From assembly GCA_030451825.1 (NCBI GenBank), contig JAKDNL010000012.1:1-34093 (forward strand): DNA of 34,093 nt, read 5' to 3'. The DNA is from Pseudonocardia sp. (GTDB lineage: Bacteria > Actinomycetota > Actinomycetes > Mycobacteriales > Pseudonocardiaceae). Below the pieces are notes generated by a model. That model searched no databases. It was given only the letters and a program-made list of their open reading frames with translations, and was not told the DNA's origin. This document shows, piece by piece, positions 3,339-29,708 of the stretch (positions within the stretch are counted from its first letter, which is position 1; each line of letters begins with the position of its first letter). The translations under genes were made by a program, and so were the position numbers.

Positions 3339-4721
3339 TCCGCACTGCACCAGTCCCGGCGCCGGCCGCGCGGGCGCCGGCCGCTCTATCAGGGCGGGCC
3401 CTGATAGTCGGGGGGTGGCTGCTCGCCGAGGGTCGGGGGCTGGTGGCCGGTTCTGGAGGACGGCGCTGACGGCGGCGAGGAACTCACGGGGCTTCTCCTG
3501 GTGGGCATTGTGCCCGGCGCCGGCGAAGTAGATCAGCCGAGAGTGCGGCAACCGGTCGCGGTAGTCCAGTGCCGAGTGCCACGACAGGTAGTCGCAGGAT
3601 CCCTTGACGATCAATGTCGGTACGGGTAGCCCGGTCAGCGCCGGGCGCGGATCGGTGGCGGGTGGGGCGGTGGCCGACTGTGGATATTGCATGGCGTAGA
3701 AGCCGGAACCGCGTACCGGCGGGAGTCCGGCGGGGGCGCCGTGGCAGAACAGTGCCGGTTCGGCGAGGTTGAGCACCGCATCGTTGCGGGCGTCGGCCTC
3801 CCGATCGCCGAAGAACGCGTGCGCCGCGGCCGGGTTGACCTGTAACAGGAGGTAGCCCAGCAACGGTCGTGGGGCGAGCACCTGGGCGTACTGCCGGAGC
3901 TTGTGTCCGAGTTCCAGGTCGGTGGTGGCGCGCGTCGGGCTGGTGTCGGCGGGGTCGAGCGGGCCGGGTGAGACCAGCACAAGTCGTGCGACGTGCTCGG
4001 GGTGCGCCGCGGTGTAGGCGGCGGCGAGCGCGCCACCGTAGGAGTGCCCGAGCAGCACCATCCGGTCCAGCCCGAGCCGGAGTCGCAGCGCCTCCAGGTC
4101 GGCGACGTCGCGGTCGCGGCCGTATCCGCGGGGGTCGGCGAGGCGGGTGGAGGTGCCGCCGCCGAGCTGGGCATAGAGGTAGACGTCGGATCCCAGGCCG
4201 GTCAGCGGGGCGAGCGCGCGGGCGTTGGTGGCCAGGTCGGGGACCCCCGGCCCGCCGTGCAGTATGACGATCGGTGGCCGTCGGGCGGGGCCGCGGGCAG
4301 GTAGCCGCCACACGGCCAGCCGGGAACCGGTGGACAGGGCGACGTGCTCTCCACCGGGCAGAGCGTTCTGTGGCGGCGGTCCGATGTCGGCCGGCGGGAT
4401 GAGCGTGGTCACGATGAACACCGCGAGCAGCGGGATCGCGGTCCCCGCGAACAGCAGCCATCGGGCGCGGTGGCGATGCTCGGCCCGGGTCCGGTGGGCG
4501 GCGACCCAGGCGGCGCCCGTCAGGTCGAGGCCCAGGAACGCCAGCATCCCGGCCGCCATGAACACCCACGGCACCGGCACCAGCGCCGCTACCGCGCCGG
4601 AGGCGACCAGCGCGCCGACGACCGCGACGATCACCACGGAGGCGACCGCGACGGCGGTGACCACCCTCGACCGACGCCGAGGCGTGACGCCCCGGCGTGC
4701 TCGCCCGCTGCTGACTCCCAC
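3123..4721 (-). CDS. Membrane-anchored alpha/beta hydrolase (S33 / proline iminopeptidase-like)
   Basis: The N-terminal ~110 residues contain about three hydrophobic helices. An alpha/beta hydrolase domain follows with the oxyanion motif HGGPG (~155-159), the nucleophile elbow GHSYGG (Ser ~227), a probable acid in KGSCDYLSW (Asp ~377) and the catalytic His in GAGHN (~404). HGGPG is typical of peptidase family S33. I chose the GTG at 4721 because GAGGTGAT lies just upstream; a GTG at 4730, overlapping the preceding stop, is the alternative. The domain ends near residue 425, but the frame stays open another ~107 residues and runs antisense into the end of the MFS gene. That low-complexity tail is probably not native: one base fewer in the G6 run at 3410-3415 would give a stop at 3389-3391. 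Substrate unknown; the active domain is probably extracytoplasmic. Confidence 0.82.
   Translation of the reverse strand: MGVSSGRARRGVTPRRRSRVVTAVAVASVVIVAVVGALVASGAVAALVPVPWVFMAAGMLAFLGLDLTGAAWVAAHRTRAEHRHRARWLLFAGTAIPLLAVFIVTTLIPPADIGPPPQNALPGGEHVALSTGSRLAVWRLPARGPARRPPIVILHGGPGVPDLATNARALAPLTGLGSDVYLYAQLGGGTSTRLADPRGYGRDRDVADLEALRLRLGLDRMVLLGHSYGGALAAAYTAAHPEHVARLVLVSPGPLDPADTSPTRATTDLELGHKLRQYAQVLAPRPLLGYLLLQVNPAAAHAFFGDREADARNDAVLNLAEPALFCHGAPAGLPPVRGSGFYAMQYPQSATAPPATDPRPALTGLPVPTLIVKGSCDYLSWHSALDYRDRLPHSRLIYFAGAGHNAHQEKPREFLAAVSAVLQNRPPAPDPRRAATPRLSGPALIERPAPARPAPGLVQCGSSAHRAPGGWGVAGCLRGEADGNAGGHQEQRRADGEADADRVRDGRGIVGVRADEGDEDGPQGRRADRGTQ
3356..3380. terminator. GC hairpin downstream of the MFS gene
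   Basis: CCGGCGCC (3356-3363) and GGCGCCGG (3373-3380) form an 8-bp all-GC stem with a 9-nt loop, 18 bp after the MFS stop. There is no U-tract, which is common for actinobacterial terminators. It lies in the space between convergent genes and could serve the + strand transcript. Confidence 0.5.
3386..3407. terminator. Perfect 10-bp palindromic hairpin between convergent genes
   Basis: CTATCAGGGC (3386-3395) and GCCCTGATAG (3398-3407) are exact reverse complements separated by 2 bp. The element is near-symmetric and sits between the MFS stop and the hydrolase domain on the other strand, so a bidirectional terminator is the simplest reading. In a frame one base off that of the hydrolase, this element contains a TGA at 3389-3391, which is relevant to where the hydrolase really ends. 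Confidence 0.55.
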
Positions 4722-13987: not shown

Positions 13988-13998
13988 GATCTTCATGC
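13982..13998. terminator. Palindrome containing both stop codons of a convergent gene pair
   Basis: GCATGA (13982-13987) and TCATGC (13993-13998) are exact inverted repeats around a 5-bp loop. The TGA of the + strand gene and the TGA of the - strand gene form part of the two arms. It is short for a terminator, and part of the symmetry follows simply from facing TGA codons. Confidence 0.35.
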
Positions 13999-14670
13999 CC
14001 CCGCGTGAACGCCCCGGGAACTGAGGAACCGGATGGGCGCGATCAGCGTCCGGTAGACGGGTCGCACTACCCGCCCGGGGAGCAGGCCGTGGCGCTCCTC
14101 CTCCCAGACCCGGCCCCGTGGGTGGGTCCGGAACAGGGGACCTTCAGAACGCTTTGGTGCGGCGGTCAGGACCTCGATACGGGAGAGGTGTTTGACACTG
14201 ACGTAGCCGTACTGCCGCGGGCTGACCAGCCTGGCCGGCGCTCCGTGGTCACCGTCGAGCGGGTAGCCGTTGAGGTTCTCGGCAATGAGCACGTCGTCGG
14301 CCAGAGCGTCCTCGATCGTCATCACCGACTCCCATCCGTCGAGCCCCCGACACACGACATGGGTGACCGACGTCCCCGGCCGCAGCGCCGGTTCGATGAC
14401 GGCGCGGTAGACGGTGGCGAACGAGACCCCCTCCCAGCGCAGATTGGTGGATGACCAGCCGGCCACGCAATGGAAGTCGGTGGCGACCTCCCGCCGGGGA
14501 AGCGTCGACAGCGTGGCGAGTGGCAGGTCGACCACCTCGGCCATCGCCCCGCGCATCTCGATGATCGGGTCGGCCGGAACGGCCGGTGCGGGGCGGGAGA
14601 GGTGCGAGCCGAAGCGGGGGAATCCGTCGACCCGGCGTTGGCCCGGCGGCAGTCTGCTGTCGTTCTGCAT
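13993..14670 (-). CDS. Molybdopterin-dependent oxidoreductase, sulfite oxidase fold
   Basis: The protein has 225 residues and matches the oxidoreductase molybdopterin-binding domain. FHCVAGWSS carries the expected molybdenum-ligand Cys (~68). TSVTHVVCRGLDGWES and ENLNGYPLDGDHGAPARLVSP, with YGYVSVKHLSRIEV after it, are typical of MsrP/YedY-like and sulfite oxidase-like proteins. There is no Tat or Sec signal and no membrane helix, so it appears cytoplasmic, unlike MsrP. The dimerisation domain of true sulfite oxidases is absent. Substrate unknown. A 130-bp gap separates it from the DUF1772-like gene upstream on the same strand, so shared transcription is possible but not evident. Confidence 0.87.
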   Translation of the reverse strand: MQNDSRLPPGQRRVDGFPRFGSHLSRPAPAVPADPIIEMRGAMAEVVDLPLATLSTLPRREVATDFHCVAGWSSTNLRWEGVSFATVYRAVIEPALRPGTSVTHVVCRGLDGWESVMTIEDALADDVLIAENLNGYPLDGDHGAPARLVSPRQYGYVSVKHLSRIEVLTAAPKRSEGPLFRTHPRGRVWEEERHGLLPGRVVRPVYRTLIAPIRFLSSRGVHAGA

Positions 14671-21316: not shown

Positions 21317-21904
21317 ATGGATCAGCGGACGAAGCTCCTCGAGGCGGCGATGATCTGCCTGCAGCAGCGTGGGTACGCCCGCACGACGACCCGGGACATC
21401 GTGGCCGAGGCCGGGGCGCACCTGCCCGCGGTGAACTACTACTTCGGCTCGAAGGAGCGACTGCTCGATGCCGCGATCACCGCAGGGCTGGGTCGGTGGA
21501 TGGACACCACGATGGCCACCGCGCCCTCCGACTCGCCGGCCGGTCCCGCCGCGCTCCTGCGCGACAGTCTCGCCGGGTTCCTCGCCGCGCTCGAGTCCAA
21601 CCGCACAAACGTCGTGGCGGCGGCCGAGGCCTACGCTCAGGTGAGTCGCAGCGAGGAGCTGCGCGAGAGTCTGGCCGCGGAATACCAGCGGGCGGCCGCA
21701 CGGGTCGAGGCTGTCGTCAACGAGACCGAGGGCGACGACGATCCGCTCGACGATCGGGATCGGCGCGGTGTCACGACGGTCCTGCTGGCCCTCTTCGACG
21801 GACTTGCGATCCAGTGGCTCGTCGCCCCCGACCGGAGTCCGGATGCCGAGGACGTCATCCGCTCCCTGGCGATCCTGGGCTCGGTGCTCGCCGACGAGCA
21901 GTGA
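21317..21904 (+). CDS. TetR-family transcriptional regulator (divergent to the P450-MFS operon)
   Basis: The protein has 195 residues. The HTH reads TTTRDIVAEAGAHLPAVNYYFGSKERLL, the classic TetR recognition region, followed by a ligand domain with helices around RTNVVAAAEAYAQVSRSEELR. No ribosome site precedes the ATG at 21317, so a leaderless transcript is possible. It is divergent from the P450 gene and probably represses both the P450-MFS operon and itself through the repeats between them. It is convergent with the next TetR gene, with only 14 bp between the stops. Confidence 0.93.
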   Translation: MDQRTKLLEAAMICLQQRGYARTTTRDIVAEAGAHLPAVNYYFGSKERLLDAAITAGLGRWMDTTMATAPSDSPAGPAALLRDSLAGFLAALESNRTNVVAAAEAYAQVSRSEELRESLAAEYQRAAARVEAVVNETEGDDDPLDDRDRRGVTTVLLALFDGLAIQWLVAPDRSPDAEDVIRSLAILGSVLADEQ

Positions 21905-21918
21905 GACGGGACTGATCC

Positions 21919-22497
21919 TCATGGCTGCTGTGGCATCCCGGGAGTGATCTGTGCGATCAGGTGATCCAGGGCCCGTTGTGCCGGCCGGCCCGTGGCTGCC
22001 ACCTCCGGTAGACCATCGGGGTCAGCGTGGCGCAGGTCCGACCAGCCGAGATAGGCGGCGTAGGCCGTGATCGCGTGCCGCCGGGCGGCCGCGGGCGTCA
22101 GGCCGAGCTCGGTGTAGATCTCGGTCAGGAAGGCGATGCGACACCGGGTCACCCTGCGCAGCACCGGTGCGACGGCTGGGTGCGTGCCGGCGACGATGGT
22201 CGGCTCGAGATCGGGAACCTCGTGTTCGGCCAGGGCCTCGGTGAACAGCCCGCGCAGCCGCTCCCGGGGGTCGGTGACCTCGCGCAACGCAGCGATCATG
22301 TCGGTGGTACAGACCTGCTCCCACAGCTCGAGAGCCGTCGTCACCAGCGCCTCCCGGTCGGCGAAGTGCCAGTAGAAGCTGCCCCGGGTCGCGCCCAGCT
22401 CGCCCGCCAGCGTGTCCACCGCGACCGCGGACGTGCCGCCGCGGGCCATGGTGCGCAGGGCCGCCAGCGTCCAGTCGTGTCTGGTCAGTCGTTTCAT
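21919..22497 (-). CDS. TetR-family transcriptional regulator (divergent to the hemerythrin operon)
   Basis: The protein has 192 residues from ATG 22497. The HTH reads VDTLAGELGATRGSFYWHFADREAL, followed by a C-terminal domain with GLTPAAARRHAITAYAAYLG, which resembles the TetR_C group often paired with small membrane proteins. The in-frame ATG at 22536 lies inside the 40-bp palindrome, so I reject it. No clear ribosome site is present. It is divergent from the DUF3995, WPP-repeat and hemerythrin operon and sits 10 bp from the palindrome, so it very likely controls that operon and itself. Confidence 0.92.
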   Translation of the reverse strand: MKRLTRHDWTLAALRTMARGGTSAVAVDTLAGELGATRGSFYWHFADREALVTTALELWEQVCTTDMIAALREVTDPRERLRGLFTEALAEHEVPDLEPTIVAGTHPAVAPVLRRVTRCRIAFLTEIYTELGLTPAAARRHAITAYAAYLGWSDLRHADPDGLPEVAATGRPAQRALDHLIAQITPGMPQQP

Positions 22498-22506
22498 TGC
22501 CAAACA

Positions 22507-22546
22507 CCATACAGCACCGTACGGTCGTCCGTACATTGCTGTATGG
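22507..22546. promoter_or_regulatory. Candidate TetR operator: near-perfect 40-bp palindrome
   Basis: The outer arms CCATACAGCA (22507-22516) and TGCTGTATGG (22537-22546) are exact 10-bp inverted repeats. The inner arms GTACGG (22519-22524) and CCGTAC (22529-22534) are also exact and share the same centre. Only the two pairs at 22517-22518/22535-22536 and the outer pair of the central TCGT (22525/22528) break the symmetry. It lies between TetR (start 22497) and DUF3995 (start 22566). Its size would suit two TetR dimers. The role is inferred from position and symmetry. Confidence 0.8.
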
Positions 22547-22565
22547 AGGGAACGGAGGGTCTGCC

Positions 22566-23072
22566 GTGCTCAGTGCCATGCGTTGCGCGGTCGTCGTCGA
22601 TGCGGCCGCCCTTCTCGCCGTCGGCGCGCTGCACGCGTCGTGGGCGCTCGGGTCACCGTGGCCTGCGCCCGACATGACCACGCTGGCCCGCAGGGTTGTG
22701 GGCGGCGACGAGATGCCGCCGCCACCGCTGACGGCCGGGGTGGCGGTGCTGCTCGGCGGCGCGGCGGGCGCACTGCTGGTCCGAGAGGGCGTGCTGGGTG
22801 AACCGGTTGCCCGGCTCGCCTCTCGCCCCGGCCTGCGCCGGTTGGTCATCGCCGGCTGCCTGGCTACGGCGGGTGCGCTGCTGGGGCGCGTTATCGGTGG
22901 GCTGGTCGCGCACGCGAGGGTCGTCGATCCGGGCACCGCCGAGTTCGGGTCGTCGGACATGCGCGTCTACGCGCCGATGTGTCTCGCACTCGGCGCCGTG
23001 GCCGCGATGGCACTGCGCCCTCAGCGCCCGCCCGGCGCCGCACCGGCCGCACGCCGTCTTCCGGCGTGCTGA
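22566..23072 (+). CDS. DUF3995-like small integral membrane protein
   Basis: The protein has 168 residues from GTG 22566, chosen for the CGGAGGG site just upstream. It has about four hydrophobic helices. ALHASWALGSPWPAPD in the first and the following loop with a proline run match my recollection of DUF3995: a conserved His and Trp at the end of helix 1. Its function is not known. It is the first gene of the operon, 20 bp after the 40-bp palindrome, and is followed 13 bp later by the membrane-anchored WPP-repeat protein. Confidence 0.75.
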   Translation: MLSAMRCAVVVDAAALLAVGALHASWALGSPWPAPDMTTLARRVVGGDEMPPPPLTAGVAVLLGGAAGALLVREGVLGEPVARLASRPGLRRLVIAGCLATAGALLGRVIGGLVAHARVVDPGTAEFGSSDMRVYAPMCLALGAVAAMALRPQRPPGAAPAARRLPAC

Positions 23073-23085
23073 CGGGAGTGCAGGT

Positions 23086-23598
23086 ATGCGAGTGCTACGC
23101 AGGCGCGCCGCGGCGCTCGGTACGGTCCTGGTCGCGACAGTGGTCGTGGGTATAGGGGCTCTCTCGGCCTACGTCTACCTCGAGTTCATTTCGGTGGTCC
23201 GCTTCACACCCGAACATGGCCAGGTCAGCGTCGCGGTGGACACCGTCCCGGGACTCGGCCCCGTGCTGGTCACGAACAAGGGCTACGCGCTCTACATGTT
23301 CCCGCCCGATGGGCGTCGGCGGGTCACCTGCACCGGCGACTGTGCCACGGCCTGGCCGCCGCTCACCGTGCCCGCGGGCACGGCCGTGTCCGCGGGCCCC
23401 GAGGCGCGGGCCGAGCTACTGGGGACCGCCCCGAATCCCGACGGCGGACGCGTTGCGACCTACGACGGGTGGCCGCTCTACACCTACCTGGGCGACTCCG
23501 ACCCGCTCCGCGCAACCGGGCACGGCGTGGATGCCGACGGCGGCTACTGGTACGTCATGCGCCCCTCCGGCGAGGTCGTCGACACATCCCCGCACTGA
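23086..23598 (+). CDS. Membrane-anchored secreted WPP-repeat protein (COG4315 / PF03640-like)
   Basis: The protein has 170 residues. The N-terminus RVLRRRAAALGTVLVATVVV is basic then hydrophobic, giving a signal-anchor or signal peptide without a lipobox. Two repeats follow. The first has VLVTNKGYALYMFPPDG, then CTGDCATAWPPL; the second has ATYDGWPLYTYLGDSD, then YWYVMRPSGEVV. This is the secreted-repeat architecture of PF03640. The Cys pair (CxGxC) could form a disulfide or bind metal. The family's biochemistry is unknown to me. It is close in sequence to the next gene, suggesting tandem duplication. ATG 23086 has GGGAGTG upstream. Confidence 0.82.
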   Translation: MRVLRRRAAALGTVLVATVVVGIGALSAYVYLEFISVVRFTPEHGQVSVAVDTVPGLGPVLVTNKGYALYMFPPDGRRRVTCTGDCATAWPPLTVPAGTAVSAGPEARAELLGTAPNPDGGRVATYDGWPLYTYLGDSDPLRATGHGVDADGGYWYVMRPSGEVVDTSPH

Positions 23599-23654
23599 CC
23601 CGATGCGCGGCATCCGCCGCCAAAGCTCACCCCGTGACACGCGGAAGGAATCCC

Positions 23655-24170
23655 ATGCACCGCAAGGCATTAGCCGCGTCTGCCCTGGTGGCAGCCCTGA
23701 CCGTTGCGGGGTGCGGCCAGACGTCGCTGGGCCCCGTGCCCGCACGTCCCGGGGCGGAACCCGCCGGTGCGGGCTCGACCGTGCAAGTCGGCCCCGTTGA
23801 CGGGCTCGGCAGTGTCCTGGTCACGTCGGACGGCTACCCGCTGTACATGTTCCCGCCCGACCAGGGCCGTGCCGTCACCTGCACCGGTGCCTGCGCGGGA
23901 ACGTGGCCCCCCATGCGCCTCCCGGACGGGGAGACGCCCGTCGCCGGATCCGGCGTGCAGGTGGCACTGCTCGGAACCGTCGAGGCACCGGAGGGCGGCC
24001 GGGTCGTCACCTACTCCGGCTGGCCGCTCTACACCTACGTCGACGACGCCGTGCCCGGCCAGGCCACCGGCCAGGCACTCGACCTCAACGGCGCCCCGTG
24101 GTATGTACTGCGCCCTTCCGGTGAACTCGTGGTCCCGGCGGGAAGCTCGTCGATGGGCGGCACCTCGTGA
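23655..24170 (+). CDS. Lipoprotein with two WPP repeats (COG4315 / PF03640-like)
   Basis: The protein has 171 residues. It has a signal peptide with lipobox LTVAGC (Cys ~20), so it is probably a lipoprotein on the outer face of the membrane. Repeat 1 has VLVTSDGYPLYMFPPDQG and CTGACAGTWPPM; repeat 2 has VTYSGWPLYTYVDDA and PWYVLRPSGELV. It is a paralogue of the preceding protein with a different anchor. GGAAGGAA lies 4 bp before ATG 23655. Its stop overlaps the hemerythrin GTG (GTGA, 24167-24170), so the two are translationally coupled, which ties the repeat protein to the hemerythrin functionally. Confidence 0.88.
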   Translation: MHRKALAASALVAALTVAGCGQTSLGPVPARPGAEPAGAGSTVQVGPVDGLGSVLVTSDGYPLYMFPPDQGRAVTCTGACAGTWPPMRLPDGETPVAGSGVQVALLGTVEAPEGGRVVTYSGWPLYTYVDDAVPGQATGQALDLNGAPWYVLRPSGELVVPAGSSSMGGTS

Positions 24171-24958
24171 CGCGCGTAGGGGCCTACCGGCCCGGTGGGC
24201 AGCCACCCGCTGACGAGGACGACACGACAACCGGGTCCCCGGAGCGCGGCGGAATCTCCCGCCGTGGCCTGCTCATCGGCACGGCAGGGCTCGGTCTCGG
24301 CGCAGCCGGCACGGCCGCCGGCGTCGGCCTGGTGGCCGACCGCGGCCCGGCGATCATCGGTCGGTCGCCGTCGGAAGCGTTGATGACCGATCACGGCATC
24401 CTCAAGCGGATCCTGTTCGCCTACCGCGAAGCCGGACGTCGCATCCGGGCCGGGGAACCCGTGCCGACCCGGGCAGTGCGGCAGGGAACCCGAATCATTC
24501 ACGACTACATCGAGGGATTCCACGAGGGCCTCGAGGAGGCCTACGTCTTCCCCCGCCTGCAACAGGCCGGGCGGGCAGTGGACACGGTGCGGGTACTGCT
24601 CGTCCAACACGCCAGGGGAAGGCGGATCACCGCCGACATCCTGGCCGCGACCGCCCCGGGCACCGAGCTGCCCGCCACCGGCCGTGACCGCCTGGCCGCC
24701 GCGATGAACAGCTTCGTGCGCATGTACGAGGTCCATGAAGCCCGCGAGGACACGGTCGTCTTCCCTGCCCTGCGCGCCATCGCCTCGGACAAGGCCTATG
24801 CCGAGCTCGGCGAGCGCTTCGCCGCCGAGGAGGACCGCCAACTCAGCGTCGGGCACCTCGCGGAGATGATCGAGCGGATCGAGGGGATCGAGAAGGGCCT
24901 CGGCATCTACGACCTTGGACAGTTCACCCCCACCGCGGGGGAGGATGGTGCGGACTAA
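24167..24958 (+). CDS. Tat-exported hemerythrin-domain protein
   Basis: The protein has 263 residues from GTG 24167. A twin-arginine motif ISRRGLL (~30-36) is followed by a hydrophobic stretch rich in Gly and Ala, a Tat signal or anchor. The hemerythrin domain covers ~70-245: His76 in TDHGILKR, His119-x3-Glu123 followed by YVFP, His148 in VQHARG, and His190-x3-Glu194 followed by VVFP. This is the HHE-type diiron ligand pattern. Tat export fits a protein that folds with its metal centre before export. Known family roles are O2, NO or iron binding and redox sensing. Linkage to two secreted WPP-repeat proteins suggests a cell-surface redox or metal function; this is inference. Confidence 0.88.
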   Translation: MTRVGAYRPGGQPPADEDDTTTGSPERGGISRRGLLIGTAGLGLGAAGTAAGVGLVADRGPAIIGRSPSEALMTDHGILKRILFAYREAGRRIRAGEPVPTRAVRQGTRIIHDYIEGFHEGLEEAYVFPRLQQAGRAVDTVRVLLVQHARGRRITADILAATAPGTELPATGRDRLAAAMNSFVRMYEVHEAREDTVVFPALRAIASDKAYAELGERFAAEEDRQLSVGHLAEMIERIEGIEKGLGIYDLGQFTPTAGEDGAD

Positions 24959-28985: not shown

Positions 28986-29708
28986 TCACGATGTCGCGAG
29001 GTTCGTCCTGCCGATCACGGTTGGGCGCGCGGCCAGGTAGGCCTCCGCGAGCACGGCGTGCATGACGAGGGCAAACCAGAACGCGACGCCGAACCATTGT
29101 GTGCCGGCGTTGTTCTGGATCGCGAGCAACCCGACGGCCTGGAAGAGCCCCACCCACACCCGGGTCGTGCCCACGGCCAGGCCCACGGCGAACGCCCGGA
29201 TCATGAAGCGCCGGTGCCGGGCGATGTCACGGCGGCGGACGGCGCGGTAGGCCAGCACGAGCGCGGCGAGGAACCAGGCACCGAACACGACCGCGCCGCT
29301 CGCCTCGAGCGTGCCGCCGTAGGGGAACCACACCCCGACGACAATCGCGGCGACGCCGGTGATCAGGCCGGCCGCGAGGACGACCCGGCCCAGGCGCCGG
29401 TGCGCCCTGAGGTGCTGCGACCGGAACCGGCGCGAGAGCTGGAGCGGCGCGCCGAGCAGGTAGACCACGCCGGGCACCATGTGCAGGTAGGCCGCGGCCG
29501 GGTGCAGCGCGTACCGCTGCTCGAAGGCGTCCGGGCCGGGAACCGTCCCGGTGACGATGTTCGGCACGTCGACCGCGAGCCGGATGGCGAACGACACCAG
29601 TACCACCGCGATCAGAAGCGCCAGGATCGACCACCGGAGCCTGGGGCGTGCGCCACACATGGCGCCGATCAGCCGGGTCCTGCGTGCCGCGCCAGAAGTC
29701 TCGGTCAT
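28986..29708 (-). CDS. DUF2306-like integral membrane protein
   Basis: The protein has 240 residues and about six to seven hydrophobic helices. YALHPAAAYLHMVPGVVYLLGAPLQ, then HRRLGRVVL, and further on RHRRFMIRAFAVGL with RVWVG match the DUF2306 pattern of His and Arg residues at helix ends. The function of that family is unknown. Its ATG (29706-29708) overlaps the stop of the Sua5/YciO-like gene (29705-29707), so the two are translationally coupled. It is the last gene of the operon that begins with the LLM-type gene. Confidence 0.8.
   Translation of the reverse strand: MTETSGAARRTRLIGAMCGARPRLRWSILALLIAVVLVSFAIRLAVDVPNIVTGTVPGPDAFEQRYALHPAAAYLHMVPGVVYLLGAPLQLSRRFRSQHLRAHRRLGRVVLAAGLITGVAAIVVGVWFPYGGTLEASGAVVFGAWFLAALVLAYRAVRRRDIARHRRFMIRAFAVGLAVGTTRVWVGLFQAVGLLAIQNNAGTQWFGVAFWFALVMHAVLAEAYLAARPTVIGRTNLATS

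Follow-up and report, generated by a model that had tools for sequence, protein, structure and literature searches.

The window analysed here, a 34,093-nucleotide stretch of Pseudonocardia sp. DNA (contig JAKDNL010000012.1), contains a short gene cluster in which a lipoprotein of the secreted-repeat family PF03640 (Lipoprotein_15) overlaps a hemerythrin-like protein bearing a twin-arginine translocation (Tat) type signal. Translation and Pfam comparison recover all the listed elements of the cluster, i.e. a TetR-family regulator, an inverted repeat, a DUF3995 protein, two PF03640 genes and the hemerythrin. On the + strand the DUF3995 membrane protein (22566..23072; PF13160, 60.4 bits, E 3.2e-16) is followed after 13 bases by wppA (23086..23598; two PF03640 repeats, 65.3 bits, E 3.5e-18) and after a further 56 bases by wppB (23655..24170; two PF03640 repeats, 75.7 bits, E 1.9e-21), both scores exceeding the family gathering cut-off of 24.4 bits. 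The wppB gene is joined by a GTGA stop/start overlap of 4 nucleotides (24167..24170, +) to the hemerythrin gene, hhe (24167..24958, +; PF01814, 50.6 bits against a gathering cut-off of 25.3, E 3.4e-13). Reading by eye assigns wppB a lipobox, VAGC, whereas wppA lacks the lipobox Cys and an N-terminal hydrophobic stretch seems to serve as its anchor; both have a CxGxC motif in the first repeat. On gene set, 40-bp repeat, overlap, differing anchors, CxGxC motifs, twin-arginine signal and HHE ligands, the preliminary description of this DNA is confirmed by translation, Pfam and inspection.

The hemerythrin has a diiron ligand pattern of the His4Glu2 type, H76, H119xxxE123, H148 and H190xxxE194. 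These six residues together with E124 and D195 are invariant in all 17 aligned hemerythrins, and the His..HxxxE..His..HxxxE arrangement is kept in 18 of 18 orthologues by pattern search. The protein is a predicted Tat substrate by virtue of a twin-arginine motif, SRRGLL (residues 31-36; 24257..24274, +), in the N-region of its signal peptide; R32 and R33 are invariant in the same 17 rows, and a pattern of RR followed by hydrophobic residues is read in all 18 proteins. The Tat route would fit loading of the cofactor before export. An AlphaFold2 model built from a four-sequence alignment (mean predicted local distance difference test score, pLDDT, of 69, its helices containing blocks over 90) aligns with the hemerythrin-like structures 2p0n (Z 14.8) and 3cax (Z 13.7). 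It aligns at Z 10.9 both with FBXL5, an iron/oxygen sensor, and with 6q09, the homologue of Rv2633c (142 residues, root-mean-square deviation 4.0), at a level where unrelated bundles score from about 10 down. Foldseek alone gives this model no E-value under 0.001, YtfE entries appearing at E 0.8 to 2.7, and no PDB hemerythrin matched the protein by phmmer at E up to 1. Its ligand set presumably resembles those of FBXL5 and the RIC proteins. The RIC/YtfE di-iron repair proteins, which share the hemerythrin-like diiron bundle, have an N-terminal ScdA_N domain and a cytoplasmic location, whereas the window protein has no ScdA_N domain (PF01814 is the only family found at E up to 0.1) and is predicted to be exported.

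Orthologues of this hemerythrin are sparsely distributed. They occur in 7 of 100 relatives at E 1e-5 (the window's own genome and one match of 26% identity included). The wider genome sets, each of which counts the window genome, give 10 of 397 for the order, 5 of 394 for the class and 2 of 396 for the phylum, and three families give 4 of 24, 3 of 112 and 1 of 5, one of these genomes (G1165) being new. In all of these searches but the first and third of the family ones, 7 to 26 candidates were scored per genome. Named genomes yield four loci, one at 26% identity, and PLSDB gives no tblastn match that would indicate carriage on plasmids. Eighteen orthologous loci, the window included, are counted here, L013/G048 and L017 (each 26% identity) being left out as too distant; flanks of about 5 to 8 kb were examined for most, with shorter flanks on at least one side at L014, L015 (a 4.6-kb contig), L022 and L047. 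At 12 of the 18 the gene immediately before the hemerythrin encodes a PF03640 protein, and in every one of these the stop and start codons overlap by exactly 4 nucleotides (ATGA or GTGA); the weakest case counted as paired is L014, where just the second of the two PF03640 repeats remains in the open frame. The other six hemerythrins showed no PF03640 neighbour.

The other members of the cluster do not travel with this pair. Each of the 11 other paired loci has one PF03640 gene in place of the two in the window, and the DUF3995 and TetR proteins of the window have no phmmer match at E 0.01 in those 11 loci or in the six unpaired ones, a search in which single-sequence queries can miss distant TetR genes. 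In a smaller search set TetR2 finds a match (E 2.8e-5) beside one unpaired hemerythrin, L030, from the same genome as L047. DUF3995 and TetR are consequently rejected as conserved components, and the system of TetR, DUF3995, two PF03640 paralogues and hemerythrin that had been envisaged contracts to the lipoprotein-hemerythrin pair.

The two members of the pair appear to have been inherited together. In the hemerythrin tree the 12 paired proteins fall on one side of a branch (support 93/89; 94% of bootstraps). In the PF03640 tree, from which L014 and L085 were left out, 11 paired proteins, two of them from the window and wppA included, form a group of their own against 52 others (100/95; 100% of bootstraps). 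Among the 397 genomes of the order, with 7 to 26 candidates scored in each, a profile of the paired PF03640 proteins exceeds 200 bits in only eight, the next score being 125 bits, a gap that arises partly by construction since the profile was built from paired proteins; the eight are the same eight that hold a paired hemerythrin in the order. This hemerythrin lies within about 1.5 kb of none of the 52 other PF03640 loci. Because of the shared clades, the profile scores and its absence from those 52 loci, the inherited unit is, as judged from sequence, the lipoprotein-hemerythrin pair, smaller than the operon proposed earlier. The overlapping genes and the co-inheritance therefore indicate that lipoprotein and hemerythrin act together, and the two are very probably partners. 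The earlier suggestion that the repeat proteins partner with the diiron protein is thus well supported by genomics, since the association recurs and the diiron ligands are invariant; neither of the two outcomes named in advance as refuting it was observed.

A lipobox of its own is present in two of the six unpaired hemerythrins (L022 and L044) and in none of the 12 paired ones. The two are probably Tat lipoproteins, to judge from their combination of twin-arginine motif and lipobox, and the distribution hints that paired hemerythrins owe their anchor to the PF03640 lipoprotein.

What the pair may do is suggested chiefly by its neighbours. As found by Pfam and phmmer, copper or oxidase-maturation genes stand beside 7 of the 12 paired loci, SCO1 in four and CtaG in three, and the seven span four taxonomic groups (families f2, f3 and f16, and Speluncibacter); this linkage of the pair to SCO1 or CtaG neighbours is new in this analysis. 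At L019, L041, L042 and L085 the gene immediately before the PF03640 gene is SCO1/SenC, which overlaps it by 4 nucleotides (ATGA or GTGA) in all four. CtaG (PF09678) is directly downstream of the hemerythrin at L018 and L020, and at L016 it is divergent just upstream of the pair with a MarR-type gene between. Genes of the DUF1775 (YcnI-type) and CopD types lie within about 6 kb upstream of the pair at L041, L042 and L085; a CopC domain is present at L042, whereas at L041 and L085 that gene is cut by the edge of the available sequence. The CopD-type genes of these three loci also give weak matches to FixH/YtkA-like C-terminal domains, of the kind found in B. subtilis YcnJ. This CopC-CopD-YtkA protein is reported to support copper supply to haem-copper oxidases (PMC13344008).

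By phmmer, no SCO1, CtaG, CopCD or YcnI relative is found beside the six unpaired hemerythrins or the 52 other PF03640 genes, the latter covered by flanks of at most about 1.5 kb; since the queries were taken from the loci under study, with Pfam run on a selection of neighbours only, remote forms of SCO1 or CtaG may be missed in these controls. The broader idea that PF03640 in general is a copper-linked family is rejected on the 52 other loci. Among 146 neighbours of other PF03640 genes (L048-L077 and L094-L115) luciferase-like monooxygenases (7), extracytoplasmic function (ECF) sigma factors (6) and zf-HC2 zinc-finger anti-sigma proteins (5) are among the commonest families, and no copper or hemerythrin family is among the 25 commonest of the 110 Pfam families represented. 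At the level of whole genomes, SCO1 is present in all eight of the other paired genomes sampled, those of L014, L015 and L016 lying outside the sample, and in 0 of 6 unpaired genomes, one of which is 72% complete.

On this evidence the pair may serve as a redox aid when copper is handed to cuproenzymes of the envelope, a haem-copper oxidase above all, a reading to which we give a probability of roughly 0.4; copper or oxidase maturation is thus tentatively taken as the theme of the pair. The core would be a two-gene module in which the wppB lipoprotein sits on the outside of the cytoplasmic membrane, the hemerythrin-like diiron protein would be exported by Tat already folded and iron-loaded, and the lipoprotein would probably tether or dock it at the membrane. 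There the diiron protein might control whether copper is oxidised or reduced, or clear O2 or peroxide, where factors of the SCO1 and CtaG types handle the metal. That the two proteins touch, that they are exported, that iron is bound, that copper is the substrate and which way the redox step runs are all inferred. That the pair performs a specific redox step in copper handling is rather unlikely, and a similarly doubtful elaboration is a new iron-copper metallation device, in which the diiron hemerythrin would set the valence of copper carried by the PF03640 protein before hand-over to SCO1 or CtaG, as a non-haem counterpart of the peroxidase DtpA. If that were true, PF03640 would gain its first function, as an envelope copper carrier, and hemerythrins would gain a new role as a copper redox or peroxide gatekeeper in cuproenzyme maturation.

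The closest described arrangement appears to be the sco-ecuc-SLI_4212-dtpA operon of S. lividans, whose lipoprotein copper chaperones are reported to cooperate with DtpA, a haem peroxidase exported by Tat; the authors of that work propose that DtpA oxidises Sco-bound copper (PMC4736821). By analogy the same logic is proposed here with a diiron hemerythrin and a PF03640 lipoprotein: in both arrangements genes for envelope lipoproteins, for Sco and for an iron redox protein exported by Tat stand together, with a copper transporter in the cluster. They differ in that DtpA is a haem DyP peroxidase whereas the pair has a diiron-type hemerythrin, that the PF03640 protein would occupy the place of ECuC, and that SCO1 adjoins only 4 of the 12 pairs. 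Different iron redox proteins, it is suggested, can be drawn into envelope copper delivery, a haem DyP protein in Streptomyces and a diiron one here. Pfam lists PF03640 as a secreted repeat whose function is unknown, and this analysis turned up no relative of solved structure; the pairing together with the SCO1/CtaG linkage in several lineages provides a concrete, testable hypothesis for the family. Among the leading literature matches, in which subscription literature is thinly covered, no published description of a PF03640-hemerythrin pair was found.

A number of observations weigh against the copper interpretation. A search for SCO1 in the window's own genome (94% complete, 8% contamination) found none, and no relative of SCO1, CtaG, CopCD or YcnI was found across the 34-kb window. 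Five of the 12 paired loci (the window, L014, L015, L021 and L040) are without copper neighbours, and Pfam run on ten neighbours of L021 and L040 gives no copper or oxidase-maturation family. The SCO1 gene of L042 (7497-8147, -) is truncated, lacking the N-terminal CxxxC part that its close relatives at L041 and L085 keep, while the pair beside it is intact. Independent origins of the SCO1 linkage are few because the four SCO1-linked loci fall within one six-row hemerythrin subclade, and the split in SCO1 presence between paired and unpaired genomes follows taxonomy. Beyond the order the score gap is smaller, since L051, an unpaired PF03640 protein from the wider class, scores 143 bits against the profile of the paired proteins. 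The CxxxC motif is ruled out as a special SCO-like sign of copper because it is near-universal in the family, preceding W in 50 of the 52 other PF03640 proteins. Of the envelope redox, metal or gas-handling system suggested in the preliminary description, the metal part has thus been sharpened by the neighbours to copper or oxidase maturation, with the failure to find SCO1 in the window's genome standing against it; overall, that interpretation is partly supported.

Several of these observations would be expected if the pair acts together and its neighbours are incidental, its function being a non-copper one of the envelope, e.g. electron transfer or signalling. The five loci without copper neighbours and the genome of the window, in which no SCO1 was found, fit this, as do the likely menaquinone genes that adjoin the other PF03640 gene of that genome and the ECF sigma factors among the commonest neighbours of other PF03640 genes. 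However, SCO1 or CtaG stands beside the pair in each of the four taxonomic groups and at none of the 58 control loci, and we regard incidental linkage as unlikely.

Defence against nitrosative or oxidative stress has comparable standing as an unlikely explanation. Here the exported hemerythrin would be a surface diiron nitric oxide (NO) peroxidase or catalase, and the PF03640 lipoprotein would only anchor it. The window protein shares with Rv2633c and the M. kansasii hemerythrin-like protein (Mka HLP) a His/Glu ligand pattern and may share their helical bundle, and differs from them in its Tat-type signal and its pairing with a PF03640 lipoprotein. NO peroxidase activity and a weak catalase activity are reported for the M. 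kansasii homologue (PMC8913304), and the lipobox distribution described above looks as if membrane tethering matters. The alignment with 6q09 that favours this explanation is, however, at a Z near 11, close to the value of about 10 for unrelated helical bundles; no NO or peroxide gene is present in the selection of neighbours scanned, and defence leaves the SCO1/CtaG linkage in 7 of the 12 paired loci unexplained.

A role in oxygen handling, in which the hemerythrin would bind O2 at the membrane, either to supply a terminal oxidase or to shield it, would draw on the family membership of the protein and would read the linkage to oxidase assembly factors as a sign of the oxidase, not of copper. 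It is improbable, since the conserved pattern is His4Glu2 and not the five-His site that PMC9388753 gives for O2-carrying hemerythrin, and since the linked genes, among the neighbours scanned, encode no oxidase subunits but assembly factors and proteins of copper-import types. Equally improbable is iron handling by an exported ferroxidase or iron sensor with PF03640 as an iron-binding lipoprotein, for which the FBXL5 alignment speaks, along with the parallel to EfeO/EfeB of the EfeUOB system (lipoprotein plus exported iron enzyme, with metal handled outside the membrane; PMC4736821) and the MarR-type gene upstream at L016, which passes the PF01325 iron-dependent repressor cut-off (31.4 against 26 bits) though MarR itself scores 64. 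EfeUOB differs from the window's operon in its DyP peroxidase, where the window has a hemerythrin, and in its permease, for which the operon has no gene. Against iron handling stands the absence of any iron transporter from the selection of neighbours scanned.

The PF03640 proteins wppA and wppB are members of the group of SCO0930-like lipoproteins (two repeats, CxGxC, WPP), standing within it in their own hemerythrin-tied clade; their matches to the SCO0930 model, 79 and 83 of 275 bits, are far under its cut-off. In the 11-row PF03640 alignment the lipobox Cys, C20, is nearly invariant (at least 90%), wppA being the exception. The tree position of wppA, which groups with a Trebonia protein (100/79) within a three-row clade that includes wppB, leads us to reject it as a recent tandem copy of wppB; the duplication is therefore old, or one copy was acquired. 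No significant PDB sequence relative was found for wppB or the hemerythrin. At E 0.001 Foldseek gives a PF03640 model (pLDDT 69) no match in the PDB, and re-alignment of 996 chains by VIA-align gives none at Z 2, a comparison of a predicted structure that shows neither a new nor a known fold. The Speluncibacter partner (L016:7384-7992, +) has a Met-containing C-terminal tail that is absent from other partners.

The other PF03640 gene of the window's genome, L024 (G000:C693:4719-5414, -), encodes a lipoprotein-like product with a Met/His-rich stretch, which in our estimation resembles those of copper-binding proteins. It sits among likely menaquinone genes, i.e. those of a chorismate-binding enzyme, a thiamine pyrophosphate enzyme and a UbiE methyltransferase, and the gene after it (3448-4716, 422 residues) has no Pfam family at E 0.01.

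Upstream of the cluster the TetR-family regulator (21919..22497, -; PF00440, 36.5 bits, scanned as 21919-22500, one codon longer) is divergent, and the gene caller starts it at the ATG at 22497. The operon had been given as beginning at that position; DUF3995 most likely starts at the GTG at 22566. The single TetR gene described earlier is accompanied by a second at 21317-21904. In the 68-bp divergent promoter gap lies the 40-bp inverted repeat (22507..22546), a candidate TetR operator with 18-nucleotide arms, 16 of 18 positions paired (89% complementary), and a 4-nucleotide loop. Since shuffled windows yield comparable repeats by the same criterion (two in the window, three in total in three shuffled windows), such a repeat is not rare in itself, and only its location in the divergent gap fits an operator. 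The divergent TetR may control the operon, as a local feature not seen with other pairs. Elsewhere the window encodes a DUF2306 membrane protein (28986-29708, -) and a molybdopterin-binding oxidoreductase domain protein (13993-14670, -).

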